NCBI RefSeq assembly: GCF_000526155.1
Contig: NZ_JAFN01000001.1
Location: forward strand, 1,244,501-1,308,500
Length of the DNA: 64,000 bases
From: Deferrisoma camini S3R1
GTDB lineage: Bacteria; Desulfobacterota; Deferrisomatia; Deferrisomatales; Deferrisomataceae
Reading direction: 5' to 3'
In this document: piece by piece, positions 40,294-60,595 of the stretch
Position numbering within the stretch: the stretch's first letter is position 1
How the letters are laid out: the number at the start of each line of letters is the position of its first letter
The notes under the pieces: model-generated
What the model was told of the DNA's origin: nothing
The model's input: only the letters and a program-made list of their open reading frames with translations
Databases searched by the model: none
Position numbers and translations under genes: made by a program

Positions 40294-40331
40294 GGCTCGT
40301 GTTCCGTTTCGCAAAAGCATATGCGGATTGC

Positions 40332-40495
40332 GGCGGTGGGGCTGGGGGCTCCGACGAAGCGCGACGGCCGAGCAGCCCGGGCCGCCCGGCGCCAGGGGAG
40401 CGGCCGCGGCGCGTGCCCTCACGCGCCGTAGCGGACCGCGCCGAGGCGGCCCCTGCGAGGCCGTTCAGCGAAGGAAAGCCCCCAGCCCCACCGCC
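40332..40495 (+). repeat. 165-bp structured intergenic element, copy 1
   Basis: Perfect 19-bp terminal complement, GGCGGTGGGGCTGGGGGCT with its reverse complement, and a central hairpin CGGCGCGTG-CCCT-CACGCGCCG at 40407-40428. The interior is about 90% identical to copy 2 (55307-55469) and clearly related to copy 3 (57908-58072, opposite strand). Confidence 0.88.
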
Positions 40496-40534
40496 TTGGA
40501 TGCCACGAAATTTCGGAAACGCTCCATTCGTTTC

Positions 40535-40566
40535 GGCTGGAAGGCTGGAAAGCTGGGAGGCTGGGG
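40535..40566 (+). repeat. Octamer array, GGCTGGAA type (4 units)
   Basis: GGCTGGAA GGCTGGAA AGCTGGGA GGCTGGGG in 8-nt register, 40 bases after element copy 1. Confidence 0.8.
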
Positions 40567-40763
40567 AACTCCAGCCCTTCGGAAGCGATACGATAGCAGA
40601 AAAGTGGCCGAGCCGCCCCCTCAGGCCAAGTTTCCGTCAGATTGATACCGAGTTGCGTTCAAACCGAGAGTTCTCGTGGGGCGGGGCAAGGGACCTGCGC
40701 TTCAGGAACCAGGGATCAGCGCACAGAAGCCAGGGTCAAACCGCACACCCGGGCTTCCTGTCG

Positions 40764-40791
40764 GCTGAATTCTGAACTCTGAACTCTGTCC
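40764..40791 (+). repeat. Heptamer array, TCTGAAC type (4 units)
   Basis: GCTGAAT TCTGAAC TCTGAAC TCTGTCC in 7-nt register; the reverse complement matches the array at 55200. Confidence 0.8.
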
Positions 40792-40872
40792 ACCGAGACG
40801 GCCGCGCACGGCCAGAACCAGGCCCCTTGGCCCGCCGGTTCGAGGGTCGGTAGCTTTGAACGCAAGTTGGAA

Positions 40873-41577
40873 TCACACCCCCAGGTAGGCCTTTCGCACC
40901 TCCTCGTCGTCGAGGAGCTCGCTTCCGGTGCCCTCGCGCACGATCCGGCCGGTCTCGAGCACGTAGGCCCGGTCGGCCACGGCAAGGGTCTGGCGCACGT
41001 TCTGCTCCACGATCAGCACCGTGACCCCGTCGCGCCGGATGTCGTTGACCACGTTGAACACCTCCTCCACCAGCAGCGGGGCCAACCCCAGGCTCGGCTC
41101 GTCGAACAGGATCATCCGGGGCAGGCTCATCAGGCCCCGGCCGATCGCGAGCATCTGCTGCTCGCCCCCCGACAGGGTGCCGGCCAGCTGCCGACGGCGC
41201 TCCTTGAGCCGGGGGAACCGGGCGTACACCCTCTCGAGGCTCTCGGCCCGGCGGGCCTTGGCCGCGGGCTTCAGGGCCCCCATCTCCAGGTTTTCCTCCA
41301 CGGTCATCTCGGGGAACAGCCGCCGGGCCTCGGGAACGTGGGCCAGGCCCAGCTCGATGATGCGGTACGGCGGGATCTGGTCCAGGCGTTCGCCCAGGAA
41401 CTCCACCGTGCCCTTGCGGGGTCGCAGTAGCCCCGAGATGGTCCGCAGGGTGGTGGACTTGCCGGCGCCGTTGGTCCCGATCAGGGCCACCACCTCGCCC
41501 TCGCCCACGTGGAACGAGACGTCCCACAGCACCTGCACGTCGCCGTAGAACACGTCGATGCCGTTCACCTTAAGCAT
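40873..41577 (-). CDS. livF: Branched-chain amino acid ABC transporter ATPase
   Basis: 234 residues. Walker A IGTNGAGKSTT, Q-loop, signature LSGGEQQMLAIGRGLM, Walker B ILFDEPSLGLAP and the LivF-type C-terminus. With LivG it energises import of leucine/isoleucine/valine or related amides. It overlaps livG by 8 bases and is the last gene of livKHMGF. Confidence 0.95.
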   Translation of the reverse strand: MLKVNGIDVFYGDVQVLWDVSFHVGEGEVVALIGTNGAGKSTTLRTISGLLRPRKGTVEFLGERLDQIPPYRIIELGLAHVPEARRLFPEMTVEENLEMGALKPAAKARRAESLERVYARFPRLKERRRQLAGTLSGGEQQMLAIGRGLMSLPRMILFDEPSLGLAPLLVEEVFNVVNDIRRDGVTVLIVEQNVRQTLAVADRAYVLETGRIVREGTGSELLDDEEVRKAYLGV

Positions 41578-42295
41578 GGGCGGCCTCTCCTCCCAGGTAG
41601 GCCTGGATCACCGCCGGGTTCCGGGCCACCTCCTCCGGGGTGCCCTCGGCGATCTTCTCGCCGTAGTTCAGCACCACGATGTGGTCGCTGATGGACATGA
41701 TGACCTTCATGTGATGCTCGATGATCAACACCGTGGTGCCGGTCTCCCGGATCTTGCGGATGATCCGGATGCTCTCGTCGAGCTCCGTGGGGTTCAGGCC
41801 CGCGCACGCCTCGTCCAGCAGGATCAGGGCGGGCCGGGTGGCCAGGGCCCGCGCGATCTCCAGGCGTTTGCGAAGCCCCAGGGGCAGGCCCTTGCTCACC
41901 GTGTTGGCGACCGGGGTCAGCCCCGTGAACTCCAGCACCTCCCAGGCGTTGCGCTCGGCCTCGGCGCGGGCCGGAAACCGAAGGAACGAAGAGGCCAGCA
42001 CGTTGTCCAGCACCGTCATGCGCTGGAGGGGCTTCACCACCTGGAAGGTCCGGGCCAGCCCCATGCGGCACACCTTGTGGGGCTTGAGCCCGTCGATCCG
42101 CTCCCCCCGGAACCGGATCTGGCCCGCGGTGGGCTTGAGAAACCCGTTGATCATGTTGAACAGGGTGGTCTTGCCGGCGCCGTTGGGCCCGATCAGCCCG
42201 ACGATCTGCCCCTCGGCCACGGCGAAGCTCACGTTGCTCACGGCCGTGAGCCCGCCGAACTGCTTCGTCACCCCTTCGAGTTCGAGAAGCGCCAT
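41570..42295 (-). CDS. livG: Branched-chain amino acid ABC transporter ATPase
   Basis: 241 residues. Walker A IGPNGAGKTTLFNMI, the LivG-type signature region LPLGLRKRLEIARALATRP and Walker B LILLDEACAGLNPTE, then HHMKVIMSISDHIVVLNYGEKIAEG. It starts 1 base after the livM stop, indicating translational coupling. Confidence 0.95.
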   Translation of the reverse strand: MALLELEGVTKQFGGLTAVSNVSFAVAEGQIVGLIGPNGAGKTTLFNMINGFLKPTAGQIRFRGERIDGLKPHKVCRMGLARTFQVVKPLQRMTVLDNVLASSFLRFPARAEAERNAWEVLEFTGLTPVANTVSKGLPLGLRKRLEIARALATRPALILLDEACAGLNPTELDESIRIIRKIRETGTTVLIIEHHMKVIMSISDHIVVLNYGEKIAEGTPEEVARNPAVIQAYLGGEAAHA

Positions 42296-42296
42296 G

Positions 42297-43283
42297 TCAC
42301 ACGCCTCCGGCCCCGGCCGGCTTCGACCGGCCTAGGAAGAATCGCATCATCTTGCGAAAGTCACCCACCACCCCGTTGGGCAGGAAGATGATGATCACGA
42401 TCAACAGGATGCCGAACAGGGTCTGGTGGGCCCGGCCGATGTAGGGCAGGGTCCGCACCACCTCGCTCAGGAGGATCATGATCACCGCGCCCACCAAGGG
42501 GCCCCACCGGGTGGCCACCCCGCCCACCATCACCACCATGATGGCCACGATGGACACGTCGTGCAGGGCGAACACGATCTCGGGGTCGATGTAGCCCATG
42601 TAGCAGGTGTAGAACGCGCCGGCCACGCCGGTCAGCACGGCGCTCACCACCAGGGCGATGTTCTTGTACAGGGTGGTGTCGATGCCCAGGGACTCGGCCG
42701 CGTCCTGATCCTCGCGGATCGCCACGAAGTAGTACCCCCACTTCGACCGCACCATGACCTCGAGCACGACGAACGAGGCCACGGCGATGGCCAGGATCAC
42801 GTAGTAGAACGGCTCCTTGGCCACCCAGGTGCGGGTCTCGAGCATGATGCCCCGGGTGCCTTCGGTGAGCCACTCCAGGTTCTCGGCCGTCACCCGCAGC
42901 ACCTCGCCCATGGCCAGGGTGCCCAGGGCGAAGTACGGCCCCCGGAGCCGCAGGCAGATGTACCCCACGCCCAGGGCGCCCAGGGCCACCACCACCATGC
43001 CCACGGGCAGCCCCCACCAGGCCGACCAGCCCAGGTGGTAGTACAGGATGCCCCCCGTGTACGCCCCGAGGCCGAAAAACGCCGCGTGGCCGAAGGACAC
43101 CTGGCCGCAGTAGCCGCCGAGCAGATTCCACGCCATGCCGATCACGCTCCACATGAGCATCAGGATGAACATGTGGAGCACGTAGCTCGAGTTCAGGCCG
43201 GGCACCAGCGGGATCACCGCCAGGCCCACCACCACCGCGGCGGCGGTGCGGTACCGGCCCAGGGTCTGTGCTGCGCTCGCCAT
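42297..43283 (-). CDS. livM: Branched-chain amino acid ABC transporter permease
   Basis: 328 residues with eight or nine membrane helices and the permease loop GYCGQVSFGHAAFFGLGAY plus YFVAIREDQDAAESLGID, both typical of LivM. It forms the membrane channel with LivH, whose gene ends 13 bases upstream of this start. Confidence 0.94.
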   Translation of the reverse strand: MASAAQTLGRYRTAAAVVVGLAVIPLVPGLNSSYVLHMFILMLMWSVIGMAWNLLGGYCGQVSFGHAAFFGLGAYTGGILYYHLGWSAWWGLPVGMVVVALGALGVGYICLRLRGPYFALGTLAMGEVLRVTAENLEWLTEGTRGIMLETRTWVAKEPFYYVILAIAVASFVVLEVMVRSKWGYYFVAIREDQDAAESLGIDTTLYKNIALVVSAVLTGVAGAFYTCYMGYIDPEIVFALHDVSIVAIMVVMVGGVATRWGPLVGAVIMILLSEVVRTLPYIGRAHQTLFGILLIVIIIFLPNGVVGDFRKMMRFFLGRSKPAGAGGV

Positions 43284-43296
43284 GGTCGTCTCCTCC

Positions 43297-44208
43297 CTAT
43301 CGGCGCCGCATCAGCCCGGCCACGCCCCCGGGCAGGAAGATCAGGCACGCCACGAACACCAGGAACCGGCCCACCGGGGCCCACCCCATGCCCACGTAGG
43401 TGGCGGTCATCGACTCGAACACCCCCAGGATCAGCCCCCCGATGATCGCCCCCTGGGTCGAACCCAGGCCGCCCAGGATCGTGATCACGAACGCGATCAG
43501 GGTGAACCGCCCCCCCAGGGCGGGGTAGAGGTAGTACATGGGGATGAACAGGCTGCCGGCCGCACCCACCAGGGCCGCGCCCAGGCCGAACGTGACCACG
43601 GTCATGCGCTCCACGTTCACGCCCATCAGGATCGCGGCGTCCTTGTCCTGGGCCGTGGCCCGGATGGCCTTGCCCGCGTCGGTCCGCTGCAGGAACCACC
43701 ACAGCGCCGCCGTGATCGCCACCGCGAACCCGAACGACACCACCCACGGCACCGAGAACGACAGCTCGATCGGCGACGAGCGCCACCAGTCGCTCAGGTA
43801 CCAAGCGTCCGACGCGTAGTCCACGGGGGTGGACCGGTAATCTGACGTGAAGAACAGGGTGGCCAGGTTCTGGAGCACCATGCCGATGCCCACGGTCAGG
43901 ATCACCTGGTTCTCCGGCAGGATCGAGTCCACCTTGAGCACCGGCGAGATCAGGGTCTTCTGGATGAACACCCCTAGCACGAACAGCGCCGGCACCGTGA
44001 CCAGCAGGGTCACGTAGGGGTCCATGCCCAGCAGGTGGAACAGCCAGAAGGCGATGTACATCGCCACCATCATCAGTTCCCCGTGGGCCAGGTTGATGAT
44101 CTTCATCACCCCCATGATCAGGGTCATGCCGAGCCCGATCAGGGCGTAGAGCCCCCCGAGCAGCAGCCCCGACACCAGGGTTTGGAGGAACACCTCGAGC
44201 TGTACCAT
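43297..44208 (-). CDS. livH: Branched-chain amino acid ABC transporter permease
   Basis: 303 residues, hydrophobic throughout, with GLLLGGLYALIGLGMTLIMGV, NLAHGELMMVAMYIAFWL and GKAIRATAQDKDAAILMGVN as in LivH. It is preceded by an unusually strong hairpin that separates it from livK. Confidence 0.94.
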   Translation of the reverse strand: MVQLEVFLQTLVSGLLLGGLYALIGLGMTLIMGVMKIINLAHGELMMVAMYIAFWLFHLLGMDPYVTLLVTVPALFVLGVFIQKTLISPVLKVDSILPENQVILTVGIGMVLQNLATLFFTSDYRSTPVDYASDAWYLSDWWRSSPIELSFSVPWVVSFGFAVAITAALWWFLQRTDAGKAIRATAQDKDAAILMGVNVERMTVVTFGLGAALVGAAGSLFIPMYYLYPALGGRFTLIAFVITILGGLGSTQGAIIGGLILGVFESMTATYVGMGWAPVGRFLVFVACLIFLPGGVAGLMRRR

Positions 44209-44235
44209 GGCAGCCGCCTCTTTGCGTGGTCACAC

Positions 44236-44272
44236 GAACGGGGCCCCCGGGCCCGGCCCGGGGGCCCCGTTC
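44236..44272. terminator. 17-bp GC hairpin between livK and livH
   Basis: GAACGGGGCCCCCGGGC, loop CCG, then the perfect complement. No T tract follows on either side, so it is more likely an attenuator or 3' mRNA-stabilising structure that keeps livK expression above the membrane genes than a simple terminator. Confidence 0.75.
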
Positions 44273-44291
44273 CGGCCGGGATCCCCTCGGC

Positions 44292-45485
44292 TCACCGCCG
44301 CCGATCGCGCCACCGAGGGATGGGGAACACGTAGTCGGCCGTGGCGAACTTCTTGGGCCAGATCACCTCGTGCTTGCCGTTGATCACCTGGAGCACCAGG
44401 GTGTCCATGAAGTTCTGGTTCTTGTACTTGCCCTTGGACTCGAACTTCACCGGGCCGAACGCGGTCACCAGGTCGGTGGCGGCCAGGGCCTTCTTGATCG
44501 CCTCCGAGTCCATGCTGCCGGCCCGCTCCAGGGCGTCTTTGAGCACGTACAGCGCGGAGTACGCCTCGGCCCCGTGGTACGAGGGGTACTTGCCGGCGCG
44601 CTTCTTGTACTTCTCGGCGAACTCCCGGGCGCCCTTGTACGGGGCGAACGGGCTCCAAAGGGTGGCCGTGACCACGTACTCGGCCGCGTCCTTGGCGTTC
44701 TCCACGAACTCGGGGATGGCGAACCCGGCCGCCCCGCCCGCGAACAGCTTGGCGTCGATGCGCAGCTCCTTGATCTGGCGCATCAGGAGCGCGGCGTCCA
44801 TCACGTACGACACCATGTAGATCACGTCGGGCCGCTTGGCCTTCACCTGGGAGAGGATCGGCTTGAAGTCCACCGCGCCGGACTCGTACTTCTCGTTGAG
44901 CACGACCTCGATGCCGAGCCTCTTGGCCTCCTTCACCATGGACTTGGAGCCGCTGGTGCCGAAGTCGGTGGCCTCGTACAGGATGGCGATGGTCTTGGGT
45001 TTGACCACCTCCCGCAGGAAGCCCCGGAACCCGCTGGTGTAGTACTCCACCGAGGGGTTCATCCGGAACACGTAGTCATACCCCTTCTGGGTGATGTCGT
45101 TGGCCGCACCCGTGACCACCAGGTAGGGGACCTTGCGCTCCTCGGCCAGGGCCGCGATCGCCTTGGAGCACGACGAGGAGTACGCGCCGATCAGGAACGG
45201 CTGCTTGGCCACGTCCACCAGCTTCTCGGCGATGGCCCGGGCGATCTCGGGCTTGCCCTGGCTGTCCTGGATGTCGAGCTCGATCTGCATGCCGTTGATG
45301 CCGCCGGCCGCGTTGATCTCCTCGGCCGCGATCTCGTAGGAGCGCTTCTCGATCTCGCCGAACTTGGCCTTGGACCCGGTGAGCGGCAGGGGGATGCCGA
45401 TCTTCAGGGTCTTCGCCAGGGCCGGCGACGCGGCCAACGCCGCTCCGACCACCGCCACGCCCAACACTCTGCCGAGCTTGCCCAT
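44292..45485 (-). CDS. livK: Branched-chain amino acid ABC transporter substrate-binding protein
   Basis: 397 residues from MGKLGRVLGVAVVGAALAASPALA (signal peptide) with AAGGAGG 9 bases upstream; an in-frame start 25 codons earlier lacks support. The periplasmic binding fold starts TLKIGIPLPLTGSKAKFGE, with AAEEINAAGGINGMQIEL and YEATDFGTSGSKSMV. Ligand class is inferred from the LivHMGF genes; amides, short peptides or aromatic acids are also transported by this family. Confidence 0.92.
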   Translation of the reverse strand: MGKLGRVLGVAVVGAALAASPALAKTLKIGIPLPLTGSKAKFGEIEKRSYEIAAEEINAAGGINGMQIELDIQDSQGKPEIARAIAEKLVDVAKQPFLIGAYSSSCSKAIAALAEERKVPYLVVTGAANDITQKGYDYVFRMNPSVEYYTSGFRGFLREVVKPKTIAILYEATDFGTSGSKSMVKEAKRLGIEVVLNEKYESGAVDFKPILSQVKAKRPDVIYMVSYVMDAALLMRQIKELRIDAKLFAGGAAGFAIPEFVENAKDAAEYVVTATLWSPFAPYKGAREFAEKYKKRAGKYPSYHGAEAYSALYVLKDALERAGSMDSEAIKKALAATDLVTAFGPVKFESKGKYKNQNFMDTLVLQVINGKHEVIWPKKFATADYVFPIPRWRDRRR

Positions 45486-45615
45486 CTCCAACCTCCTTTT
45501 CGCGAGAAAGAGACCCAACCCACACGGGGCGTCCCGGCACCAATGCACGCACCGTGCCACACCCCTCCTCGGTCAGGAGCCACGGAAAACCAACGAGGTT
45601 TGGAGAAGAGGAGGG

Positions 45616-45637
45616 AAAAAACCGGCCGGATCCGGCC
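45616..45637 (-). terminator. Probable intrinsic terminator after the sensor kinase gene
   Basis: On the minus strand GGCCG-GATC-CGGCC followed by GG and TTTTTT, 10 bases after the kinase stop codon. It suggests livK has its own promoter in the next 130 bases. Confidence 0.65.
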
Positions 45638-45647
45638 ACCCGTCCGG

Positions 45648-48600
45648 TCAGATCCCGACAACGCGGGGTTGAGAGCCGGCCCGGGGCAGCACCAGCCGGA
45701 ACACGCTGCCCTCGCCCGGCGTGGAGCGCACCTCCACCGTGCCGCCGTGGTCCTCGACGATGGTGTGGGTGATGGACAGCCCCAGGCCGGACCCACCCGG
45801 CCGCAGGCTGAAGAACGGCTCGAAGACCCGCTCCTGGTCGCCCGGCGGAATCCCGACGCCGGTGTCGGCCACCTCGACCGCCACCCGGTCCCCCTCGGCA
45901 TCCACCGTGACCCGCAGCTCGCCACCGTCGGGCATGGCCTGGACCGCGTTAAGGAGGAGGTTCAGCACGGCCTGCTTGAGCTTCTCGGGGGCGGCGAGCA
46001 CCCGGGCGTCGCCCGCCGCCTCCCCCCGGAGCACTCGGATTCCCTGGCGGCGGGCGGTCTTCTCCACCAGGAACAGGCTCCCTTCCACGATCTCGCCGAT
46101 CCGGCACTCCCGCTTGGGGGCCGTGTCCACCCGGGCGTACTCCAGCAGCTCCTGCACGATCCCCTCGAGCCGCTCGATCTCGCCCAGGGCCTGGCGCAGG
46201 GCCTGGCGGTCGGCCGGGTCCGGGAGCCGGTCGTGCAGGTCGTCGAGCAGCAGCGCCACCCCGGTCAGGGGGTTTCGAACCTCGTGGGCCACCCCGGCGG
46301 CCAGCCGGCCCAACGAGGCCAGCCGGTCCATCCGCTCCAGGGTCCGGCGCACCATGCGCTCCTCGGTCACGTCCCGGAACTGGAGGATCAGGCCCCGCTG
46401 CCCTCCCTCCTGCCCGAACCGGCTCGGCACCCACACGAACTCCCGGCGGGCCTCCCCCCGGCCCAGGGTGAACTCCCGGGGCTCGAGGGCGGCCCCATGG
46501 GCCAGCGCCCGGGCCCAGGCCTCCACCTCGGTGCCGGCGCCCAGCGTCTCGAACGGGCGCCCCCGCACGGCCTCCGGGTCGCACCCGAAGGCCTGGGCCG
46601 CGTAGGTGTTCACCGACAGCAACCGCCCGTCCCCGTCCAGGGTCACCACCCCGCTGGCCAGGCTGTCGAGCACCCGCTCCACGAACCGCCGGGCCTGCTC
46701 GGCCTCCTCGAACAGCCGGGCCCGCTCCACCGCCCGGGCCGCCTGGCCGGCCACGATCTGAAGGGGCCCCAGGAGGTGCTGGGGAATCGCCCGGCCCGAC
46801 CGGGCGTTGTCCGCGGCCAGCACCCCCACCACCCGGTCGCGGATCTTCATGGGCACGTACACGAACGAGGTGGTGCCGGCCCCCTGGGCGATGCGACGGT
46901 CCAGCGCCGTCAGCTCGGGGTCGTCCAGGTCCCGGACGAACCGGGCCCGGCCCGTGCGCACCACCCGGGTGGCCACGCAGTCGTGCACGCCGATCACGAG
47001 CGGCCGCTGCCGGATGCGAACCTCCTCCGTGGGATCGAAGCCGGCCAGGGCCACCGCTTGCAAGGTGTCCTTCCGCGGGCCGTGGACCAGATGGAGCACG
47101 GCGCGGTCGAACCCCAGCCCCTGCACGCAGGTGTCGAGGATGACCTTGAGGGCGGCCTCCCGGTCGAAGGTGGTGCCCAGGAACTCGCTGATGGACTGGA
47201 TGTGGTTCAGGATGCGTAGCTGCTCGGCCAGCCGATCCGCGCTGGTGCGGGCCTCGTCGCGGGAGCTGCGCAGGTCCTCGAGGCTCCGGCGCAGGGTCTG
47301 GTCCTTCTCGCCCAGCAGCCGGGCCATGCGGTTCAGGTCGTCGGCCAGGTCGGCCAGCTCGTCGTGGGTGGTCACCCGCACCCGGGCCGTCAGGTCGCCG
47401 CCCGCGATCCGACGAGCCATGTGGGCCATGATGCGCACGGGGTGGGAGATGGCCCGGGACAGCACGGCCGATGCCGCCACGACCAGGATGCCCAGGCACC
47501 AGGCCAGCACGAAACCGGTGCGCAGGGTGTGGCGCGAGGCCGACGCGATGGCCGCGGCCGTGGCGGCCGCGGCCCGATGGAACGCTTCGGTTCGGGCCCC
47601 GATCGTGACCCCGCCGAACACCCCGTACCGCCGGTACGGGCCGTACCCGAACCGTACCGGCGCGTAGGCCATGACCTTGTCCACGCCGGCCACGTTGTAG
47701 GTGCGGGTGACCCCGGCGCGGCCCGCGCGCACCTCCCGGGCCACCAGGGGGTAGTTGGGGTGGACGAACCCGGCGAAGTCCAGGTTGAAGGGGATTCGGC
47801 CCGCCTCGATCTCGTCCGGGGTGGAGGCCTCGGTGTACGGCGGCACCCAGCGGCCGTCCGGGCCCAGGCCCCGGATGTCCCAGAACTTGGGGTGGGCGAT
47901 GATCCAGCCCTCGTCGTCGAACAGGAAGGCGTAGTTGCCGGAGAGGTACGAGGGGAACACCACCTCGTCCCGGCTCAGCGGGAGCACGTGCTGGGTGAAC
48001 TCCATGAGGTGGCGGTGGTCCAGGGCCAGGGCCACCACCCCCTCCAGGGCGCCGTCGGGCCCCCACACGGCCAGGGCGAACCGGAGGATGCCCCGGTACT
48101 CGGCGCCGCCCACCGCCTCCTCCACGGTGCGGGCGCCCGCAAGCTGCTCGGCCCGGCCCACGTGCCGCCCCACCACGTGCCCCACCCAGGGCTCGCCGGG
48201 CGGGAGCTCCTGGCACGCGGTGAAGTAGGACTCGACTCCGAAGGTGGTGCCCTCGGGCCGGGACACGTCCCGGAGCCCGCTGGGGGGCACGGGCCGGCCG
48301 TGGTCCCATCGGAACCGCTCCCGGCCGTCCGGCCCCACCCAGGCCACCTCGGCGTACAGGGGCACCCGATCGCGCGCCTCCTTCACCCGGCCGTCCGGGC
48401 CCCGGCGGCGGCGCCACAGGATCCCCGTGCGGCCCCGGGCCAGCGCCCCGAACGTTCGCGGATCCTTCGGCGCCGCGGCCAGCATCCGGGCGTCCTGGAC
48501 CCGCTCCTCCAGGAACGCCGCGATCCGGTCGGCCAGGGTCTTGGCCTGGAGCTCCAGGGTCTGCCGGGACCGCTCGTCCAGGGCCTCGGTCGAGCGCTCC

Positions 48601-48725: not shown

Positions 48726-48775
48726 GACACCGGCGAAGCGGGCGGGGAACGGACCGATAGGCTATCAGGCTCGGG

Positions 48776-48815
48776 GGTTGGGAGGCTAGGAGGCTGGGAA
48801 GCTGGGAGGCTGGAA
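48776..48815 (+). repeat. Octamer array, GGCTGGGA type (5 units)
   Basis: GGTTGGGA GGCTAGGA GGCTGGGA AGCTGGGA GGCTGGAA in 8-nt register, in the 168-base gap upstream of the kinase gene. Confidence 0.8.
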
Positions 48816-48893
48816 GCGAGGATCCGCGTCTTTGGTCCCCTTCGTCCCCTATGTCCCTCGGGCCCTTGCGCCCGGCAGGCCAGAGGCCCGAAC

Positions 48894-49271: not shown

Positions 49272-49440
49272 GGTCCACCTCGAAGCGTCCCCGCCGGGCC
49301 GGGGGTCCCACGTTCCCGGGAGATGGGAACGAAAGACTACCACGCCGCTGGGAATCCGCCAGCCCGGTTCGCCGACACGAAAGGGAGACCCGAAGGCCTC
49401 CCTTTCCCCATTGCCGACGTGGGACGAAACGCCCGTCCGA

Positions 49441-49839: not shown

Positions 49840-49861
49840 GGCTCACCTCCTCCCCTTGCGG

Positions 49862-50311
49862 TCAACCCACCTCGATCGCGATCTTCCGCGGCTTGGCCTC
49901 CTCCGCCTTGGGCAGCACCACCTGTAGGATGCCGTCCGCGTACACCGCCTTCACGTTGCCCGCATCCACCTCGGCCGGCAGCTCCACGGTGCGCACGAAC
50001 CGGCCCGCGGAGCGCTCATTGCGGTGGAACGCGTCGGGCTTCACCCCCTCGGGCGCCTTCTTCTCGCCCGACAGGGTCACCAGGTTGTCCTTCACGGTCA
50101 CGTCGAGGGTCTCCGGATCCACCCCGGGGGCCAGGGCCTCCACGATGAACTGGTCGTCCTGCTCGGCCACGTTCACCCGAGGGTACCGCCGGGCCGACAC
50201 CCCGGGCATGAACTCCAGGGCCCATCCCCGGGACGGGAGCACCCCCTCGAAGATCCGGTCCATCTCCTGACGCAGCCTCTCCAGCTCTCGGAAAGGATCC
50301 CACACCGCCAT
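49862..50311 (-). CDS. Small heat-shock protein (Hsp20), longer copy
   Basis: 149 residues from MAVWDPFRELERLRQEMDRIF, the classic class-A bacterial Hsp20 N-terminus, with AAGGAGG 7 bases upstream. The alpha-crystallin domain (VNVAEQDDQFIVEALAPGVDPETLDV to ADGILQVVLPKAEEAKPRKI) is complete. Together the two genes encode a likely hetero-oligomeric pair of unequal copies; no CIRCE or other heat-shock operator was recognised upstream. Confidence 0.95.
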   Translation of the reverse strand: MAVWDPFRELERLRQEMDRIFEGVLPSRGWALEFMPGVSARRYPRVNVAEQDDQFIVEALAPGVDPETLDVTVKDNLVTLSGEKKAPEGVKPDAFHRNERSAGRFVRTVELPAEVDAGNVKAVYADGILQVVLPKAEEAKPRKIAIEVG

Positions 50312-50337
50312 CTCGCACCTCCTTTGGCAGTAACTTC

Positions 50338-50372
50338 GGTCGTTGGTCGTCGGTCGTTGGTCGTTGGTCGGG
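50338..50372 (+). repeat. Heptamer array, GGTCGTT type (5 units)
   Basis: GGTCGTT GGTCGTC GGTCGTT GGTCGTT GGTCGGG, preceded by GTAACTTC. It lies between the Hsp20 and RNase D genes. Confidence 0.85.
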
Positions 50373-50514
50373 GGCCTTCGGCCCGCTAGTGCGAAGAGCT
50401 CCTCGCCTCCCGCGTGCGGCGGGAACCTAAGTCCGGTGCCCGCGGTTGGCAAGCCCCCCTGCGGATGAGAGAATGGGGCCCCTTTGTTCCCCCTGTCCGA
50501 GAAAGGTGTGCGTT

Positions 50515-51648: not shown

Positions 51649-51694
51649 CCAGCAAGCGCGAGGTGGTGGCGCGGCGCCAGGAACAGTAGAGGCC

Positions 51695-51730
51695 TTAGCC
51701 TCCTAGCCCCCTAGCGTCCTGGCCTCCCAG
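51695..51730 (+). repeat. Octamer array, CTAGCCTC type (4.5 units)
   Basis: TTAGCCTC CTAGCCCC CTAGCGTC CTGGCCTC CCAG; reverse-complement orientation of the GGCTGGAG arrays at 40535 and 48776. Located between rnd and the ABM gene. Confidence 0.75.
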
Positions 51731-51741
51731 CGGAGAAGGGA

Positions 51742-51769
51742 TTGACACGTCCCGCGGCCGCGGTAGCGT
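51742..51769 (+). promoter_or_regulatory. Possible promoter for the ABM gene
   Basis: Perfect TTGACA (51742-51747), 16-base spacer, weak TAGCGT. Confidence 0.4.
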
Positions 51770-51817
51770 CAGTGGAACGGACGGCACGGTTTTTCCCACC
51801 GACGAAAGGAGGCGGCG

Positions 51818-52102
51818 ATGATCCGGGTGCTGATCGAACGCAGGGTGGCCGACGGGATGCTCGAGTCCTACCAGCTGGCGCTGCGGACCATGCGGGCCCA
51901 AGCGGTGCAGCACGAGGGATACATCTCGGGGGAGACGCTTCGGGACACCACGGATCCGGAGCACTTCCTGGTGATCTCCACCTGGACCGACCGGGCGGCC
52001 TGGGAGCGCTGGACCGCGTCCGAGGCCCGGCATCGGATCATGGCCAAGATCGCTCCCATGCTGGAGGCGCCCGAGCGGATTACGGTGTGGGAGCCGGTGT
52101 AA
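51818..52102 (+). CDS. ABM-domain protein (antibiotic biosynthesis monooxygenase fold)
   Basis: 94 residues. MIRVLIERRVADGMLESYQLALRTMRAQAVQHEGYISGETL and the FLVISTWTDRAAWERW segment are typical of the dimeric ABM ferredoxin-like barrel. Members include haem-degrading and quinone-modifying enzymes and many of unknown role. AAGGAGG precedes the start. It converges on the selenoprotein gene, the two stops lying 4 bases apart. Confidence 0.88.
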   Translation: MIRVLIERRVADGMLESYQLALRTMRAQAVQHEGYISGETLRDTTDPEHFLVISTWTDRAAWERWTASEARHRIMAKIAPMLEAPERITVWEPV

Positions 52103-52106
52103 TTCC

Positions 52107-52925
52107 TCACCTCCCGAACCGCCACGCGTCCCAGTCCGGATCTGGGTAGCGCTCGCGCCGCCACCGCAGGCCCGCGTCCTCGATGGTGCCGGGCTCCCGG
52201 GCCGAGAACAGCACCGTGAACACCCTTCGGAGCACCTCGAGGTGCTGGGCCCGGTTCCCGGGCTCGCCCAGGGCGTGTCCGAACGGGAACCGCACGAACA
52301 GCGCCCGGGGCGGCGGGGTCTTCTCCGTGATCTCCCGCACCACCGACAGGGCCACCGTGGCCACCCCTGCCGCCTCCACCGCCCTCGCCGCCAGTCCCAC
52401 GGACCGGTTGCAGATGCCTCAGGCCGGCACGAGCAGGGCGTAGTCCACACCGGCGCCGGCGAGCCGCCGGGCCACCTCCGGGGCCGACTCCCGCCGCAGG
52501 GTGTCGACGTGGGCCCCGTCGATGTGCCCCATGAACGAGTACCCCACGGCGTGCAGCCGTCCCACCGCCCCTGCGGCCACGGCCTCGCGCAGGCGCTCGG
52601 CCGGAAACACCAGGTTCAGGTCCCTCTCGGCGTCGGTGTGATCGTAGTAGTCGTGGGTGATGGTCAGGTCCCCGGGGTCCGCGTCCAGCGGGATCTCCCG
52701 GAACGACGGGTCCCCGTCCGGATCCGCCATGTCGAACGGGGGCTGGGTGCGCAGATGGAGCCCGCCGGTGGTCACCAGGGCGAGGGTGGCCTCGGCCAGG
52801 GGCTTGGTGACGGGGGTCCAGGGGATCCGCTCCGTGTCGGCCGTGAGCCCCCGAGCCCACCGGGCCGCGAGCCCCGGGACCCGGCTGAACACCTTGGCCA
52901 GCATCCGGTCCTTCCAACCGCCCAT
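52107..52925 (-). CDS. GrdB-family selenoprotein with in-frame UGA (Sec169)
   Basis: The frame from ATG 52925 (AAGGAG upstream) runs to a TGA at 52419-52421 and continues without break for another 104 codons to a TGA at 52107. Read through, it gives 272 residues with selenocysteine at 169 in a U-G-I-C motif: DYALLVPA-U-GICNRSVGLAARAVE. This position and context match the glycine/betaine/sarcosine reductase selenoprotein B family (PF07355), where Sec or Cys sits in the same U/C-x-x-C. The N-terminal part (MADPDGDPSFREIP, ITHDYYDHTDAERDLNLVFP) fits short stand-alone members. No GrdA/GrdC genes are nearby, so it is probably an oxidoreductase of unknown substrate. A SECIS-like hairpin follows the UGA. 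Annotating it as two fragments would be wrong. Confidence 0.88.
52391..52407 (-). promoter_or_regulatory. SECIS-like hairpin downstream of the UGA
   Basis: Starting 11 bases after the UGA: stem CCGGTCC / GGACTGG (one G-U) with loop GTG, or a 5-nt CGTGG loop if the top pair opens. Position agrees with bacterial SelB-binding hairpins, which lie immediately after the UGA within the coding sequence. Confidence 0.55.
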
Positions 52926-52967
52926 GGGACGACTCCTTCTGAGGTCGGTGACGGGTGGGAAGAGCCG

Positions 52968-52988
52968 TGACAGGTGACGAGTGACGAG
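52968..52988 (+). repeat. Heptamer array, TGACGAG type (3 units)
   Basis: TGACAGG TGACGAG TGACGAG in 7-nt register. Confidence 0.7.
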
Positions 52989-53016
52989 GAGAGAGCCAAC
53001 CGACTTGCCGCCCTGC

Positions 53017-53037
53017 CACGATTCACGATTCACGATT
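53017..53037 (+). repeat. Heptamer array, CACGATT (3 perfect units)
   Basis: CACGATT three times without mismatch, followed by TACC. Confidence 0.85.
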
Positions 53038-53053
53038 TACCGCAGCTTATCGG

Positions 53054-53074
53054 TGACGAGTGATGGGTGACGGA
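53054..53074 (+). repeat. Heptamer array, TGACGAG type (3 units)
   Basis: TGACGAG TGATGGG TGACGGA; same family as the array at 52968, with the CACGATT array between. Confidence 0.65.
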
Positions 53075-53303
53075 TCGTTGGGGTGAGATGCCGGAGCGAT
53101 CGATTCCGTCGCAAGTCTAGCGGCCTCCGCGCGGAGCGCCAGGGGGGACCCTTCGGGCCGGGTTCCTTCCACCGAACCGGGCGTCCTGGAGGTCACCGAT
53201 GCCGAGAAGGATAGGTGTGCCCATATTCACCCGGCCGCCAAACGGGTATCCCTCCGCAGCTCCCCCCCGCCCGACCATTCCCCCGTTCGCGCAGAAGTTC
53301 TCC

Positions 53304-53359
53304 ATCTTCACTGAAGATATTTTCTCGACATAAACGCTTGCATTCTTGAGCTGTATAAT
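53304..53359 (+). promoter_or_regulatory. Palindromic operator candidate and -10 box of the cys operon
   Basis: ATCTTC-ACT-GAAGAT at 53304-53318 lies 35 bases upstream of a perfect TATAAT (53354-53359); no good -35 is visible at 17 bases, so an activator bound at the palindrome could be needed. The DUF2061 start is 48 bases further on. Confidence 0.5.
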
Positions 53360-53407
53360 ATACATTCCAAGCATCATCCACCCTGTTTCCACACACACGG
53401 TGCATCA

Positions 53408-53632
53408 ATGGACAGTCCCCGACGAAGTCTGGCCAAAGCCCTGTCGTGGCGCCTGGTGGCCACGGTGGTCACCACGGCCATCGTGTACGCCGCCACCGGC
53501 GAGGCCGAGTTCGCCGCGACCATCGGAATCGCCGACACCGTGGTGAAGTTCGGAGCCTACTTCCTGCACGAACGCCTGTGGAACCGCGTCGCGTACGGCC
53601 GGGTTCGCCACGAGCCCGAGTACTACATCTGA
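53408..53632 (+). CDS. DUF2061 membrane protein
   Basis: 74 residues with two short hydrophobic helices (RLVATVVTTAIVYAATG and FAATIGIADTVVKFGAYFLHERLW). KALSWR and HERLWNR are the DUF2061 hallmarks. The family recurs beside assimilatory sulfate reduction genes, as here (22 bases before cysH), and may be an accessory membrane factor; its function is not established. Confidence 0.88.
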   Translation: MDSPRRSLAKALSWRLVATVVTTAIVYAATGEAEFAATIGIADTVVKFGAYFLHERLWNRVAYGRVRHEPEYYI

Positions 53633-53654
53633 CCGAACGATCAGGAGGCCGACC

Positions 53655-54377
53655 ATGAGCCCACGCCCACCCGCCCTGCCCCCCGGCACCCCGGCCGGGG
53701 AGATCCTGCGCGCCGGCCTGGAAGGAGCCGGAGGCCCCGTGGCCCTGGCCTGCTCCTTCAGCCTGGAGGACGTGGTGGTGCTCCACATGCTCACCACCCT
53801 CGCGGCCGCCCCCCGGGTGTTCGCCCTGGACACCGGCCGACTGCCCGAGGAGACCTACGAGATCGCCGAGACCGTCCGGGCCCGATACGGGGTGGAGGTC
53901 CGCTGGTACTTTCCGGAGCGCGAGGCCGTGGAACGGCTCGAGACCGACAAGGGCCTGTTCAGCTTCCGCGACAGCGTGGAGGACCGGCGCGAGTGCTGCC
54001 GCATCCGCAAGGTGGAGCCCCTGGGCCGGGCCCTGGCCGGGCTGGCCGGCTGGATCACCGGCCTACGGCGGGAGCAGAGCGTCACCCGCACGGCCGTGGA
54101 GCCGATCGAGGTGGACCTCGCCCACGGCGGCATCTGGAAGATCAACCCCCTGGCGGAGTGGACCTGGGACGAGGTGGAGGCCTACGCGAAGCAGCACGGG
54201 GTGCCCGTGCACAAGCTTCACCGGGCCGGGTACCCATCGATCGGATGCGCGCCGTGTACCCGGGCGGTCCGGCCCGGCGAGCATCCCCGGGCCGGCCGAT
54301 GGTGGTGGGAGGACCCCCAGCACAAGGAGTGCGGCCTGCACGTGGCCGCCGAACCGGCCCGGCCCGGCCGGAACTGA
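53655..54377 (+). CDS. cysH: Assimilatory APS reductase (iron-sulfur type)
   Basis: 240 residues. It reduces adenylyl sulfate to sulfite. The SGG-like PP-loop region is ACSFSLEDVVVLHML. The iron-sulfur ligands are the Cys114-Cys115 pair (RRECCRIRKVEPL) and Cys198-x-x-Cys201 (IGCAPCTRAV); the catalytic Cys226 is in KECGLH. Presence of these cysteines marks APS rather than PAPS specificity, consistent with absence of an APS kinase. Electron donor is likely thioredoxin. Followed 15 bases later by cysD. Confidence 0.94.
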   Translation: MSPRPPALPPGTPAGEILRAGLEGAGGPVALACSFSLEDVVVLHMLTTLAAAPRVFALDTGRLPEETYEIAETVRARYGVEVRWYFPEREAVERLETDKGLFSFRDSVEDRRECCRIRKVEPLGRALAGLAGWITGLRREQSVTRTAVEPIEVDLAHGGIWKINPLAEWTWDEVEAYAKQHGVPVHKLHRAGYPSIGCAPCTRAVRPGEHPRAGRWWWEDPQHKECGLHVAAEPARPGRN

Positions 54378-54392
54378 CCTAACGAGGCGACC

Positions 54393-55196
54393 ATGAGAGA
54401 TCCCCTGACCGAACTGGAGAACCAGAGCATCTACATCTTCCGGGAGGCATACCGGAAGTTCGACAGCCTGGCCATGCTCTACTCCGTGGGCAAGGACTCC
54501 ACGGTGATGGCCCACCTGGCCCGAAAGGCGTTCTTCGGCCGCATCCCGTTTCCCCTGGTGCACATCGACACCACCTTCAAGTACCCCGAGATGATCGAGT
54601 TCCGGGACCGGATGGTGAAGGAGTGGGGGGCCGAGCTGATCGTGGGCAAGAACGAGGCGGCCCTGGCCGAAGGCATGAGCCCCGAGCGGGGCCGGCTGGT
54701 GTGCTGCGAGGCTCTCAAGACCCAGGCCCTGTCCCAAACCATCGCGGCCCACGGGTTCCAGGGGCTGTTCCTGGGCATCCGGCGCGACGAGGAGGGCAGC
54801 CGGGCCAAGGAGCGGGTGTTCTCGCCCCGGGACGAGAACTTCGAGTGGGCCTACAAGGACCAGCCCCCCGAGCTGTGGGATCAGTTCAACACCGACTTCG
54901 ACCCGGGCACCCACGTGCGGATCCACCCCCTGCTGGGGTGGACCGAGATCGACATCTGGCGCTACATCGAGCGCGAGGGGGTGGAGATCTGTCCCTTGTA
55001 CTTCGCCCGGGACGGCAAGCGGTTTCGGTCGCTGGGGTGCATGCCCTGCACCGGGGCGTTCCCCTCGAACGCCTCCACCGTGGCCGAGATCATCGAGGAG
55101 CTCCAGGCCACCAAGACCCCCGAGCGGGCCGGCCGTGCCCAGGACCAGGAGAACGCCTACGCCATGCAAAAGCTCCGGGCCCGGGGTTACATGTGA
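54393..55196 (+). CDS. cysD: Sulfate adenylyltransferase subunit 2
   Basis: 267 residues. PP-loop ATP pyrophosphatase motif [14 protein letters not shown], then [37 protein letters not shown] and [18 protein letters not shown], all CysD. With the GTPase CysN it activates sulfate to APS. A 338-base repeat-filled gap separates it from cysN, unusual for this pair. Confidence 0.96.
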
Positions 55197-55199
55197 GAC

Positions 55200-55234
55200 A
55201 GAGTTCAGAGTTCAGTGGACAGAAATCAGGGAGA
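55200..55234 (+). repeat. Heptamer array, AGAGTTC type (5 units, decaying)
   Basis: AGAGTTC AGAGTTC AGTGGAC AGAAATC AGGGAGA, starting 3 bases after the cysD stop. Confidence 0.7.
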
Positions 55235-55245
55235 GCGGGGAGCCG

Positions 55246-55277
55246 CCAGCCTTTCAGCTTTCCAGCTTTCTAGTGTT
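55246..55277 (+). repeat. Octamer array, CCAGCTTT type (4 units)
   Basis: CCAGCCTT TCAGCTTT CCAGCTTT CTAGTGTT; mirror orientation of the octamers beside element copy 1. Confidence 0.75.
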
Positions 55278-55306
55278 CTGTTACGCAAAAAAGCATATCC
55301 ATTCTG

Positions 55307-55469
55307 GTGGTGGGGCTGGGGGCTCCGACAAAGCGCGACGGCCGAGCAACTCGGGCCGCCCGGCGCCAGGGGAGCGGCCGCGGCGCGTGCCCTCACGCGC
55401 CGCAGCGGACCGCGCCGAGGCGGCCCCTGCGAGGCCGTTCAGCGGAGGAGGGGCCCCCAGCCCCACCAC
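55307..55469 (+). repeat. 165-bp structured intergenic element, copy 2
   Basis: 17-bp perfect terminal complement (GGTGGTGGGGCTGGGGG... with its complement) and central hairpin GCGGCGCGTG-CCCT-CACGCGCCGC at 55380-55403. Relative to copy 1 a C-G end pair is replaced by T-A on both arms. Upstream flank CGCAAAA-AGCATAT is shared with copy 1. Confidence 0.88.
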
Positions 55470-55534
55470 ATCGGGGAATACACGAACTCGCGAACCATGA
55501 CACTAGCTTTCCAGCGCCCCAGAGGGGATTCCCG

Positions 55535-57097
55535 ATGACCCGAACTGACACCCTTCGCATCGTGATCGTGGGCCACGTGGACCACGGCAAGTCCACACTG
55601 ATCGGCCGGTTGTTCTACGACACCGGATCGATCCCCGAGGTCCGGTACCGAGAGATCGAGGAGACCTGCCGGCGGCAGGGCCGCCCCTTCGAGTTCGCGT
55701 ACCTCATGGACGCCCTGGAGGAGGAGCGGGAGCAGAACGTCACCATCGACACGGCCCAGACCTTCTTCCGGTGGGAGGGCAGGTCCTACGTCATCATCGA
55801 CGCCCCGGGCCACAAGGAGTTCTTGAAGAACATGATCACCGGCGCGGCCAGCGCGGACGCGGCGGTGCTGCTGGTGGACGGGGTGGAGGGGGTGCGCGAG
55901 CAAACCCGCCGCCACGCCTACATCCTGTCGCTTCTGGGGATCCGCCATGTGCTGGTGGCCGTGAACAAGCTCGACAAGGCCGGCTATGACCGTCGGGCGT
56001 TCTTGGCCGCGGACAACGCGGTGCGGTCGCTGCTCCACTCCCTGGGCATCTCCCCGGAGCACGTGATCCCCATCTCGGCCCGGGAGGGCGAGAACATCGC
56101 CCGAAGGCTCGGGCACACCCCCTGGTACGACGGGCCCACGGTTCTCGAGGCCCTCCACACCCTGGGCGGATCCGGATCCGAGGAGACCCTGCCCCTGCGG
56201 TTCCCGGTGCAGGACGTGTACAAGTGGGACAACCGCCGCCTGTACGCCGGGCGGGTCGAGACGGGGCGGGTGCGGGTGGGCGACGAGGTCCGGTTCTTCC
56301 CGTCGGGCCGCACGGTGCGGGTCCGGACCATCGAGCGGTGGGGAGAGCCCCCGCTCGAGGAGGCCCGGGCCGGGGACTGCGTGGGGTTCACGTTCGACGA
56401 GGAGCTGTTCGTGGAGCGCGGCGAGGTGATGGCCCACCCGGACCACGGCCCGGCCGTGGCCCGGGAGGTCCGGGCCAGCCTGTTCTGGCTCGGCCGCACC
56501 CCCCTGGAGAAGGGCAAGACCTACCTGCTCAAGACGGCCACCACCGAACTGGAGGCCGAGTGCGTGGACATCGAGGACCGGATCGACGCCTCCACCCTGG
56601 AGGTGCGCGAGCGCCACGCGAACGTGCTCGAGAGCCCCGAGGTGGGCAACGTGCTGCTGCGGCTCAAGCGCCCCGCCGCCGTGGACGTGTTCCAGGACAA
56701 CCCGCGCCTGGGCCGGTTCGTGCTCCAGGACGGCCGGTTCATCGCCGGAGGCGGCATCGTGCGGGAGACCCGGGTGGCCGGCGGCGCCCGGGCCGCCCAG
56801 GTGATCCACCTGGACCGCCAGTTTGCCACCGAGCCCGACGGGTACGTGGTGGACCTCACCCGGGAGCGGGGCGAGGTGGAATTCGAGGTGACCCCCCACT
56901 TCCTCGATACCCTTTCGGCCGGAAACCGGGTACTCTTCCGGCTCCGGGGCCCCGAGCAGGTCACGCCGGTGGCCCTGCTGGCCTACGAGCACGACATGGA
57001 GTTCACGTTCCGGCGCACCGACGACGGAGTGGCCCTGGTGTTGTGGCGGCACCCCGGGCCGAGCGCCTCGGTTCCCCTGGAGGGACTCGGACTGTAG
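55535..57097 (+). CDS. cysN: Sulfate adenylyltransferase subunit 1 (GTPase)
   Basis: 520 residues from [22 protein letters not shown]1 [10 protein letters not shown]2 region [16 protein letters not shown]3 DAPGHKEF and G4 NKLDKAGYD are all present, followed by EF-Tu-like domains 2 and 3 and a C-terminal extension ([15 protein letters not shown]). It powers APS formation with CysD. No APS kinase is fused, and the G1 loop is elongation-factor-like (DHGKST) rather than D-D-G-K-S-T, placing it in a divergent subgroup. Confidence 0.92.
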
Positions 57098-57102
57098 CCC
57101 GG

Positions 57103-57873
57103 ATGATCCCCTACCCTTCCATCGATCCGGTTGCGTTCCGGATCGGGCCCCTGGCGGTCCGGTGGTACGGCATCGCCTACCTGCTGGGGTTCCTGTCGGC
57201 CGCCCACATTCTTCGGCGGCTCGCCCGTAGCGGGCGGGCCGTCCTGGCCGAGGCCGAGGTGGGCGATCTGGTGGGGTGGCTCGCGCTCGGCGTGATCCTG
57301 GGGGGCCGGTTGGGGTACGTGGTGTTCTACAACCTCCCCTATTTCGCGGCCCAGCCGTGGAAGATCGTCGCGGTGTGGGAGGGGGGCATGAGCTTCCACG
57401 GCGGCCTGGCCGGGGTGGGGCTGGCCGCCTGGGCCTACGCCCGCCGGAGGGACCTGTCCCTGCTCGGTCTGGCCGACGCCCTGGCCGTGGCCACCCCGCC
57501 CGGGGTGTTCTTCGGCCGGCTGGCCAACTTCGTGAACGGCGAGCTTTACGGCCGGGTGACGGACGTCCCGTGGGCCATGGTGTTTCCCGCCGGCGGTCCC
57601 CTGCCCCGTCACCCGAGCCAGCTCTACGAGGCGATGCTGGAGGGCCCCCTCCTGGGGCTCGCGCTGTGGTGGTTCTGGAAACGCTTCCCCCAACGAGGGG
57701 CCGCCACGTCGGCGTTCCTCGTCGGATACGGCATCCTGCGGTTCGCGGTGGAGTTCACCCGGCAGCCCGACCCCCAGCTGGGGTTCGTGGCCGGTCCGTT
57801 CACCATGGGCCAACTGCTGAGCCTCGCGATGATCGCGGCCGGGGCGTGGATCTGGGCTGCGCGGAAGCGGTGA
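57103..57873 (+). CDS. lgt: Prolipoprotein diacylglyceryl transferase
   Basis: 256 residues with seven hydrophobic helices. The signature GRLANFVNGELYGR and the motif RHPSQLYEAMLEG (essential Arg, catalytic-region His) are clear, as is VRWYGIAYLLGF. It attaches diacylglycerol to the lipobox cysteine of prelipoproteins. Starts 5 bases after the cysN stop. Confidence 0.96.
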   Translation: MIPYPSIDPVAFRIGPLAVRWYGIAYLLGFLSAAHILRRLARSGRAVLAEAEVGDLVGWLALGVILGGRLGYVVFYNLPYFAAQPWKIVAVWEGGMSFHGGLAGVGLAAWAYARRRDLSLLGLADALAVATPPGVFFGRLANFVNGELYGRVTDVPWAMVFPAGGPLPRHPSQLYEAMLEGPLLGLALWWFWKRFPQRGAATSAFLVGYGILRFAVEFTRQPDPQLGFVAGPFTMGQLLSLAMIAAGAWIWAARKR

Positions 57874-57907
57874 TACCGATTTGCGATCAAGCTGAGCGCA
57901 TAGAGGG

Positions 57908-58072
57908 GCGGTTTGGGGGCCGTCGGCCCTCCGCCGGAAAAGACGGCCTCGCCGAAGCCGCTACGGCTCGGTCTGCTGCGGCGCGTGAGAGCACGCGCCG
58001 CGGGCGCTCCCCTGCGCCGAGCGGCTGGAACGGCTCGGCCGTAGCGCTCCGGGCCAACGGCCCCCAAATCGC
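57908..58072 (-). repeat. 165-bp structured intergenic element, copy 3 (diverged ends)
   Basis: 22-bp terminal complement starting GCGGTTTGGGGGCC, with one wobble and one mismatch, quite different in sequence from copies 1 and 2. Central hairpin GCGGCGCGTG-AGAG-CACGCGCCGC at 57978-58001. Read on the minus strand the interior aligns with copies 1 and 2 (for example ACGGCCGAGC and CAGGGGAGCG). It fills the 272-base gap between lgt and the PLP pair. Confidence 0.85.
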
Positions 58073-58145
58073 TGGCTTCGAATGCGACTGGGTATGAGGG
58101 GGCCTTGGTCGTTCCGAACCCTGGCTCCTGAAAAACGGAGGCTCC

Positions 58146-60576: not shown

Positions 60577-60595
60577 CAAGCGGGCCGAGGGCCCA

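Follow-up and report, generated by a model that had tools for sequence, protein, structure and literature searches.

INTRODUCTION

Most miniature inverted-repeat transposable elements (MITEs) are accounted for as reduced derivatives of a single insertion sequence (IS), and an AT-rich composition is often listed for those of bacteria; among other small repeats, ERIC has a strong fold. Bacterial MITEs such as QMITE2 of Coxiella and RUP and BOX of the pneumococcus are intergenic, 50 to 500 bp long and strongly folded, with terminal inverted repeats (TIRs) and target duplications, and QMITE2 is drawn as TIRs plus a core, with a fold over its full length (PMC10969869, PMC3049150). YPAL (RU-2) of Yersinia is an intergenic palindrome of about 168 bp with target duplications and empty and filled sites that is not AT rich, and ERIC (127 bp) is a small intergenic repeat whose effect on upstream mRNA depends on the direction in which it lies (PMC2229807). 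Here we analyzed a repeat present in three copies in a 64,000-nucleotide stretch of the Deferrisoma camini S3R1 genome (contig NZ_JAFN01000001.1, positions 1,244,501 to 1,308,500), called the window below. The repeat is very probably a MITE family in which one hairpin core of about 110 bp stands in two classes of ends and has probably been spread in trans by two DDE transposases.

YPAL/RU-2 and ERIC come nearest in look, likened by description and not by sequence. The inverted repeats of YPAL are described as internal (PMC2229807), whereas the D. camini elements have flanking TIRs of two kinds. Unlike the RNA effect of ERIC, the antisense bias reported below is one of distribution alone. Bacterial MITEs in general also differ from this family, which has two unrelated end classes on one core, is a near-total palindrome, is not AT rich and has no parent IS among the elements found. 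A literature search that covered few subscription papers found no report of one bacterial MITE interior common to two end classes.

RESULTS

Boundaries, empty sites and target duplications

A preliminary description of the window had placed the three copies at 40332-40495, 55307-55469 and 57908-58072 (copies 1, 2 and 3), where all of them are present. In the 4.24-Mb genome of the window (G000; one contig of 4,236,551 bases), the hairpin pattern GGCGCGTGN4CACGCGCC with at most 1 mismatch occurs at 62 places and a reversed control pattern at none, so that further copies do exist. A blastn search with copy 1 found at least 40 copies at 90-100% identity in the same genome (40 of 222 candidates were scored). 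The bare 20-mer with at most 3 mismatches was found 3 times within the window against 3.3 expected, which is the chance level, and the case for the repeat therefore rests on the genome-wide count and on the folds.

When the copies were aligned together with their flanks, the repeat ran past the complementary ends by which it had first been delimited and showed TIRs and flanking direct repeats. Those complementary ends are real and long, but they are not the termini of the element, to which a further 22-34 bp on each side belongs. The complete elements of the window are 227, 229 and 221 bp long, within the 50-500 bp of MITEs; at about 220-230 bp, they are almost wholly self-complementary and too short to encode a transposase. 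Class-1 elements (copies 1 and 2) start with TGTTCCGTTTCGCAAAAACGTATGCGG in type A and with TGTTCTGTTACGCAAAAAAGTATATCC in type B and finish with ACA; their 4-bp target sites are of the STAS type. Class 2, to which copy 3 belongs, starts with TACCAAGTCGCATTCGAAGC and finishes with GATCGCAAATYGGTA (type C). Left and right ends are alike beyond shuffled sequences for type A and for type B (0 of 1,000 each) and for type C with a P value of 0.003. The 93 distinct copies of three genomes, orthologues included, comprise 35 A/A, 18 B/B and 16 C/C (class 2) copies and 24 that are mixed, inverted or unrecognized.

Sites with and without the element, a comparison that had been proposed at the outset, were found for copies 1 and 2 in the other two genomes of the genus (G001 and G002), as exact empty sites with a single CTCG or CTAG. 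For copy 1, both relatives read GATGCCATGG CTCG TTTCGGCTGG without the element, and the window has CTCG before the element and TTCG after it. For copy 2, G001 reads CAGCTTT CTAG CTTTCCA where G000 has CTAG on either side of the element; an unrelated insert of about 378 bp (L126, positions 353-731) lies beside this empty site in G001. Copy 3 is present in G001, minus about 69 bp of the hairpin centre, and G002 is uninformative on it because other sequence occupies the site.

The direct duplications are 4 bp long and mostly CTAG in class 1, and 3 bp of the form TNA in class 2. Among the class-1 copies of the three genomes with both ends recognized, 30 of 58 have identical 4-bp flanks (permuted mean, 22.8; none of 2,000 permutations reached 30), which are CTAG/CTAG in 27 cases, GTAG/GTAG in 2 and CTAC/CTAC in 1. 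Of the 21 class-1 copies with a non-palindromic left flank, 3 have direct and none inverted flanks. Identical 3-bp flanks (TCA, TGA or TAA) were found in 13 of 16 class-2 copies, with 1 inverted (permuted mean, 6.6; 0 of 2,000). After removal of orthologous duplicates, the counts were 27 of 46 for class 1 (permuted mean, 19.1; 0 of 2,000 as high) and 8 of 11 for class 2 (permuted mean, 4.0; 8 of 2,000 as high). The elements are thus insertions into the sites, and the repeat is a bacterial MITE in its size and fold, its ends, its duplications and its empty sites. The preliminary description had favored a DNA-level element, REP- or MITE-like, over a cis RNA; the MITE-like part stands on the empty sites, duplications and TIRs, and the REP-like part falls, since the element is about 225 bp long and duplicates its target.

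One hairpin core between two kinds of ends

The three copies had been taken as one element. They do have one core in common, but copy 3 belongs to a separate subfamily in which only that core is common with copies 1 and 2: its identity to class-1 copies is 79-86%, mostly over the approximately 110 core positions. The class-1 ends (TGT...ACA) and the class-2 ends (TACC...GGTA) are unrelated, with no likeness beyond that of shuffled sequence in eight comparisons (P = 0.057 to 0.44). A third group, D (e.g., L136, L157, L166 and L178), shares this core except in the lower stem, where C-G and G-C are swapped.

Different duplication lengths go with these different ends. For DDE elements, a 4-bp duplication in one class and a 3-bp duplication in the other would point to two different transposases, and since the core is common to unrelated ends with different duplication lengths, at least two transposases have probably spread it.

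Class-2 type ends also occur around other interiors. At 2 or fewer mismatches, 147 of them were found in G000, and 15 of the 16 stretches that were read around class-2 ends hold an end pair 80-291 bp apart; these pairs enclose at least two interiors (about 270 and 290 bp) unlike the hairpin core and shorter, probably deleted forms. The same genome has other MITEs of about 80 to 291 bp with TNA-TACCRAGTTGCGTTC type ends and different interiors (L200 to L212). The examined class-1 end matches, by comparison, hold the hairpin core or a deleted form of it, except for one copy truncated at a contig end and, in G003, a genome of another genus, two matches that arose by chance. In some class-1 copies the ends are exchanged or flipped. 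Two copies of G000 (L033 and L052) have the core inverted relative to the ends or two right-type ends, an arrangement pointing to recombination through the palindromic arms. Copies without the hairpin centre were also seen (L116 and L120 in G000, L127 in G001, and L283 and L286), as expected if the host deletes long palindromes.

The family appears to be confined to one genus. In 395 sampled genomes of the phylum, searched under strict filters with 9 scored candidates in each, a covariance model of the core matched in G000, G001 and G002 only. A longer exact pattern, searched in a set with one genome per named species from which the window's own genome records are possibly excluded, found 47 stretches, all in two metagenome-assembled genomes, JALUTY01 ("bacterium isolate 128-326_maxbin2_scaf2bin.054") and JAADGT01 ("Deltaproteobacteria bacterium isolate M_MetaBat.128"), apparently the same as G001 and G002. 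Viral contigs gave no element match with one exact pattern, and phages and plasmids gave none in a blastn search with copy 2 only. In the draft G002 (e.g., contigs C4, C16, C30 and C127), many class-1 end matches lie less than about 200 bp from a contig start; the repeat therefore probably breaks this assembly, so that the copies counted in G002 are too few.

Conservation of the core among copies and divergence in place

Among 35 type-A copies, the departure from consensus per 15-base window, with gaps counted, was 0.8-5.3% from -67 to +82 around the hairpin and 7-13% in the ends. With substitutions only, 27 non-orthologous type-A copies had 73 changes in 4,019 core positions (1.8%), against 79 in 969 (8.2%) in the left end and 134 in 911 (14.7%) in the right end.

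At orthologous sites the picture was different. For 12 pairs between G000 and G001, divergence was 3.6% in the core (65/1,787), 3.2% in the ends (31/979) and 3.1% in the flanks (192/6,118), with a P value of 0.29 for core versus flank. These are 12 of the 15 listed pairs; the other three, in which one flank at most is well shared, were dropped as non-orthologous, and two outlier flanks were excluded; with everything in, the core was at 3.7%, the ends at 9.0 and 8.0% and the flanks at 8.9 and 7.7%. Since the core diverges at the rate of the flanks at orthologous sites, it is not visibly protected once inserted. A core that is conserved among copies and unprotected in place would owe its conservation to the active source copies, either by selection for the features that let them multiply or by exchange of sequence between them.

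Folding and covariation

Each of the 163- to 165-bp units folds as one long imperfect hairpin (z scores of -8.3, -8.1 and -7.1 for copies 1, 2 and 3), and none of 200 shuffled sequences folded as well in each case. The loop AGAG that had been assigned to copy 3 becomes CTCT on the opposite strand, one base off the CCCT of copies 1 and 2. The compensatory change by which copies 1 and 2 had been noted to differ in an end pair was confirmed. Among the 57 copies with recognizable arms, 22 have a complementary first pair beyond the arm, against a permuted mean of 15, a tendency and not a rule; this count suggests that complementarity itself is renewed.

In the cores of 29 selected copies of groups A, D and C, 97.8% of the aligned cells are paired, and the pairing covaries between families: both partners have changed in 8 of 34 pairs (mean of the shuffles, 5.5, with 6 of 500 reaching 8). 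The covariation score was 0.177, against 0.097 for shuffled sequences and 0.025-0.059 for slid structures; the controls are imperfect, as the structure comes from these very sequences, which are related to one another. On most measures covariation thus exceeds the shuffled and slid controls, contrary to the chance-level outcome envisaged as a test at the outset.

Covariation does not, however, make the element an RNA. If an RNA of one strand were under selection, G-U pairs should exceed A-C pairs on that strand. In 51 distinct G000 cores, the count was 18 to 12 (P = 0.36), or 13 to 10 by pair and type. An earlier crude count had favored G-U in class 1 (49 to 18) and in class 2 (35 to 11, where a single pair that is G-U in almost every copy contributed 14 of the 35), and the newer count is preferred because the crude one included misaligned rows. 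There is thus no clear strand-specific RNA signal, and because orthologous copies evolve at the flank rate and no clear G-U excess is seen, we do not take the covariation as evidence of RNA function. No Rfam family reached its gathering score over the copies, with only chance-level matches elsewhere in three copy loci.

Position and orientation relative to genes

By a refined GC-frame gene caller, none of 67 non-redundant copies overlaps a called gene by more than 100 bp; by a cruder caller, 8 of 61 copies lie inside an open reading frame (ORF), and the antisense and sense counts are 19 and 6 for class 1 and 3 and 3 for class 2. Among 72 non-redundant copies, those between genes of the same direction are antisense in 42 cases and sense in 10 (P = 9e-6), while 10 lie between convergent and 7 between divergent genes and 3 have no call. 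The antisense-to-sense ratio is 29 to 9 in G000 and 13 to 1 in the relatives. The strictest caller setting leaves 30 antisense to 8 sense copies in all, and 17 to 7 (P = 0.064) for G000 alone.

Relative to replication, with its direction taken from GC skew, a rough tally by hand gave only about 36 to 26, so that replication direction does not seem to drive the bias. Fold energy was considered as a cause and rejected, the sense strand folding more strongly in copy 1 and the antisense strand in copies 2 and 3. Some target sites were seen, in an uncounted number, to resemble the stop codons of gene ends (CTAG contains TAG, and TNA may be TGA or TAA), which would explain tolerance of the insertions and not their orientation. 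Selective removal of sense copies is our leading guess for the bias, by analogy with ERIC, which in one orientation reportedly destabilizes upstream transcripts (PMC2229807, PMC3049150).

Candidate transposases

The families searched were IS481, DDE_Tnp_1 and IS701 only. In G000, 44 class-1 end matches were found; 6 of them lie off the copies whose flanks had already been fetched, and all 6 are the same MITE, either whole (L118 and L121), with the hairpin centre deleted (L116 and L120) or truncated (L117 and L119). The genomes G001 to G003 gave 144 class-1 end matches. Of the 30 loci checked, 4 had no arm: the deleted copies L283 and L286, a copy cut by a contig end (L290) and a chance match in G003 (L279). 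A second end match in G003 (L276) passed the arm filter by chance and is not an element.

For class 2, three end pairs of about 1 kb (L197, L198 and L199) contain no recognized transposase among their ORFs, which were not submitted to the family search. The ends of the examined multicopy ISs of G000 differ from those of the MITEs. One IS of G000 shares the kind of target duplication: an IS701-family IS (NF033540, 353.7 bits) has five copies in G000, four of which are flanked by identical 4-bp NTAN sequences (CTAG, CTAT, GTAA and TTAG), like the STAS sites of class 1, with unequal flanks in the fifth and in the G001 copy. Its ends, TTCTRCTTTGTCAGATT, do not clearly match those of class 1 (best P = 0.02 of eight comparisons). 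Because the duplications are alike in kind but the ends are not clearly those of the MITE, an IS701-type enzyme is only a lead for class 1. An IS4-family IS has seven copies in G000, one of which sits inside a class-2 type MITE, with an end of that MITE on either side (L234).

DISCUSSION

The results fit a MITE family that would be moved by cut and paste by transposases encoded elsewhere. The core would be kept by selection or sequence exchange among the active copies and not by a host function, complementarity would be restored by template switching at hairpins at the DNA level or by selection for a foldable core, and sense-oriented copies may be removed or seldom inserted. Several observations weigh against this account. 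The end-pattern searches and the searches for three families found no autonomous element or transposase with class-1 or class-2 ends. Flanks are unequal in 28 of 58 class-1 copies, whether they have decayed, the ends have been exchanged or the ends were misplaced. From a plain neutral MITE one would not expect the antisense bias (42 to 10). AT richness, a common but not required trait of MITEs, is absent. One of the five shuffle measures of covariation, the number of further pair types in the A, D and C cores, is not above its control (24 versus 23.3).

All copies may belong to one mobile family in which the class-1 core recombined a single time into a class-2 MITE, and the sharing would then be uninformative on the role of the core; we put this somewhat short of an even chance. 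The 147 class-2 type ends of G000, with their several interiors, make a class-2 MITE with a foreign core plausible, and the exchanged or flipped ends of some class-1 copies fit as well. Within class 1, however, the core is far more alike than the ends, and this calls for something beyond a single recombination, for instance selection on the core or its conversion. A more far-reaching and, in our judgment, unlikely extension of the MITE reading is that the core is itself a selfish cis-acting cassette that promotes its own amplification, for example as a cruciform or single-strand hairpin, and is packaged by different ends so as to use at least two transposase systems. Its sequence would then stay constant among active sources while the ends drift, and mainly antisense insertions would persist in transcription units.

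A structured host RNA, either a cis element or a small RNA, that was spread by a transposon and then retained for its function would account for the compensatory changes above controls, for an internal loop conserved on both sides of the apical stem and for the non-random orientation relative to genes, and both the first crude G-U count (49 to 18) and the unfiltered pooled divergence, in which the core at 3.7% is slower than the ends and flanks at 8-9%, pointed the same way. This function is weakened by the ortholog and the G-U/A-C tests. The core diverges no more slowly than flanks and ends in the 12 filtered pairs, the G-U excess shrinks to 18 to 12 in the cleaner alignment, no Rfam family reaches its gathering score in the copies, and copies 1 and 2 are missing from a sister genome; a retained host RNA is therefore improbable. 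Lower still do we rate REP, BIME or REPIN repeats moved by a RAYT (Y1) transposase, to which we give almost no credence. The copies are intergenic, palindromic and numerous, and the CTAG that borders many class-1 copies on either side is reminiscent of the REP tag GTAG. Yet they are about 225 bp long and not 20-40 bp, and their 4- and 3-bp target duplications and single-target empty sites do not fit, as Y1 transposases are not known to make them; for these copies the duplications refute a REP-type origin.

On the MITE reading, one interior with two end classes and two duplication lengths contrasts with the one-IS origin usual for MITEs. An interior that is better conserved than its ends and yet shows no constraint once inserted draws a line between what is conserved among active copies and what is conserved for the host. 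In a repeat family, compensatory changes alone thus need not mean a functional RNA. The orientation bias is a testable case of selection on the placement of a palindrome in a transcription unit.

Features of the window

The coordinates of the elements and their parts are collected in Table 1. The GC content of the elements is 70-73% (from slices up to 2 bp per side off the final boundaries), and that of the window is 69-73%.

Table 1. Elements, cores and target duplications in the window
Feature	Position	Strand	Remark
Left target duplication of copy 1, CTCG	40296..40299	.	Single CTCG and no element in G001 and G002
Copy 1, complete class-1 MITE, type A ends, 227 bp	40300..40526	+	
Hairpin unit of copy 1 as first noted	40332..40495	+	
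Core of copy 1	40353..40471	+	Covariance model R1, 110.5 bits
Right target duplication of copy 1, now TTCG	40527..40530	.	
Left target duplication of copy 2, CTAG	55270..55273	.	Single CTAG at the site in G001
Copy 2, complete class-1 MITE, type B ends TGTTCTG...CATGACA, 229 bp	55274..55502	+	
Core of copy 2	55327..55445	+	Covariance model R1, 107.8 bits
Right target duplication of copy 2, CTAG	55503..55506	.	
Left target duplication of copy 3, TGA	57871..57873	.	TCA on the element strand
Copy 3, complete class-2 MITE, ends TACCCAGTCGC... / ...GATCGCAAATCGGTA, 221 bp	57874..58094	-	
Core of copy 3	57936..58053	-	Covariance model R1, 128 bits
Right target duplication of copy 3, TGA	58095..58097	.	

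Just downstream of copy 1, at 40643-40875, lies a further MITE with class-2 type ends (TGATACCGAGTTGCGTTC ... GAACGCAAGTTGGAATCA) and a different interior. The window also holds short arrays at 7835-7867, 48759-48813, 50338-50370, 60543-60581 and 60596-60629, which are CTAG rich (TCTCTAGTTTCTAG, TTCTAGCC) or made of AGGCTAG, GGTCGTT or GACCGAC units. Several class-1 insertions are bordered by similar CTAG-rich tracts.

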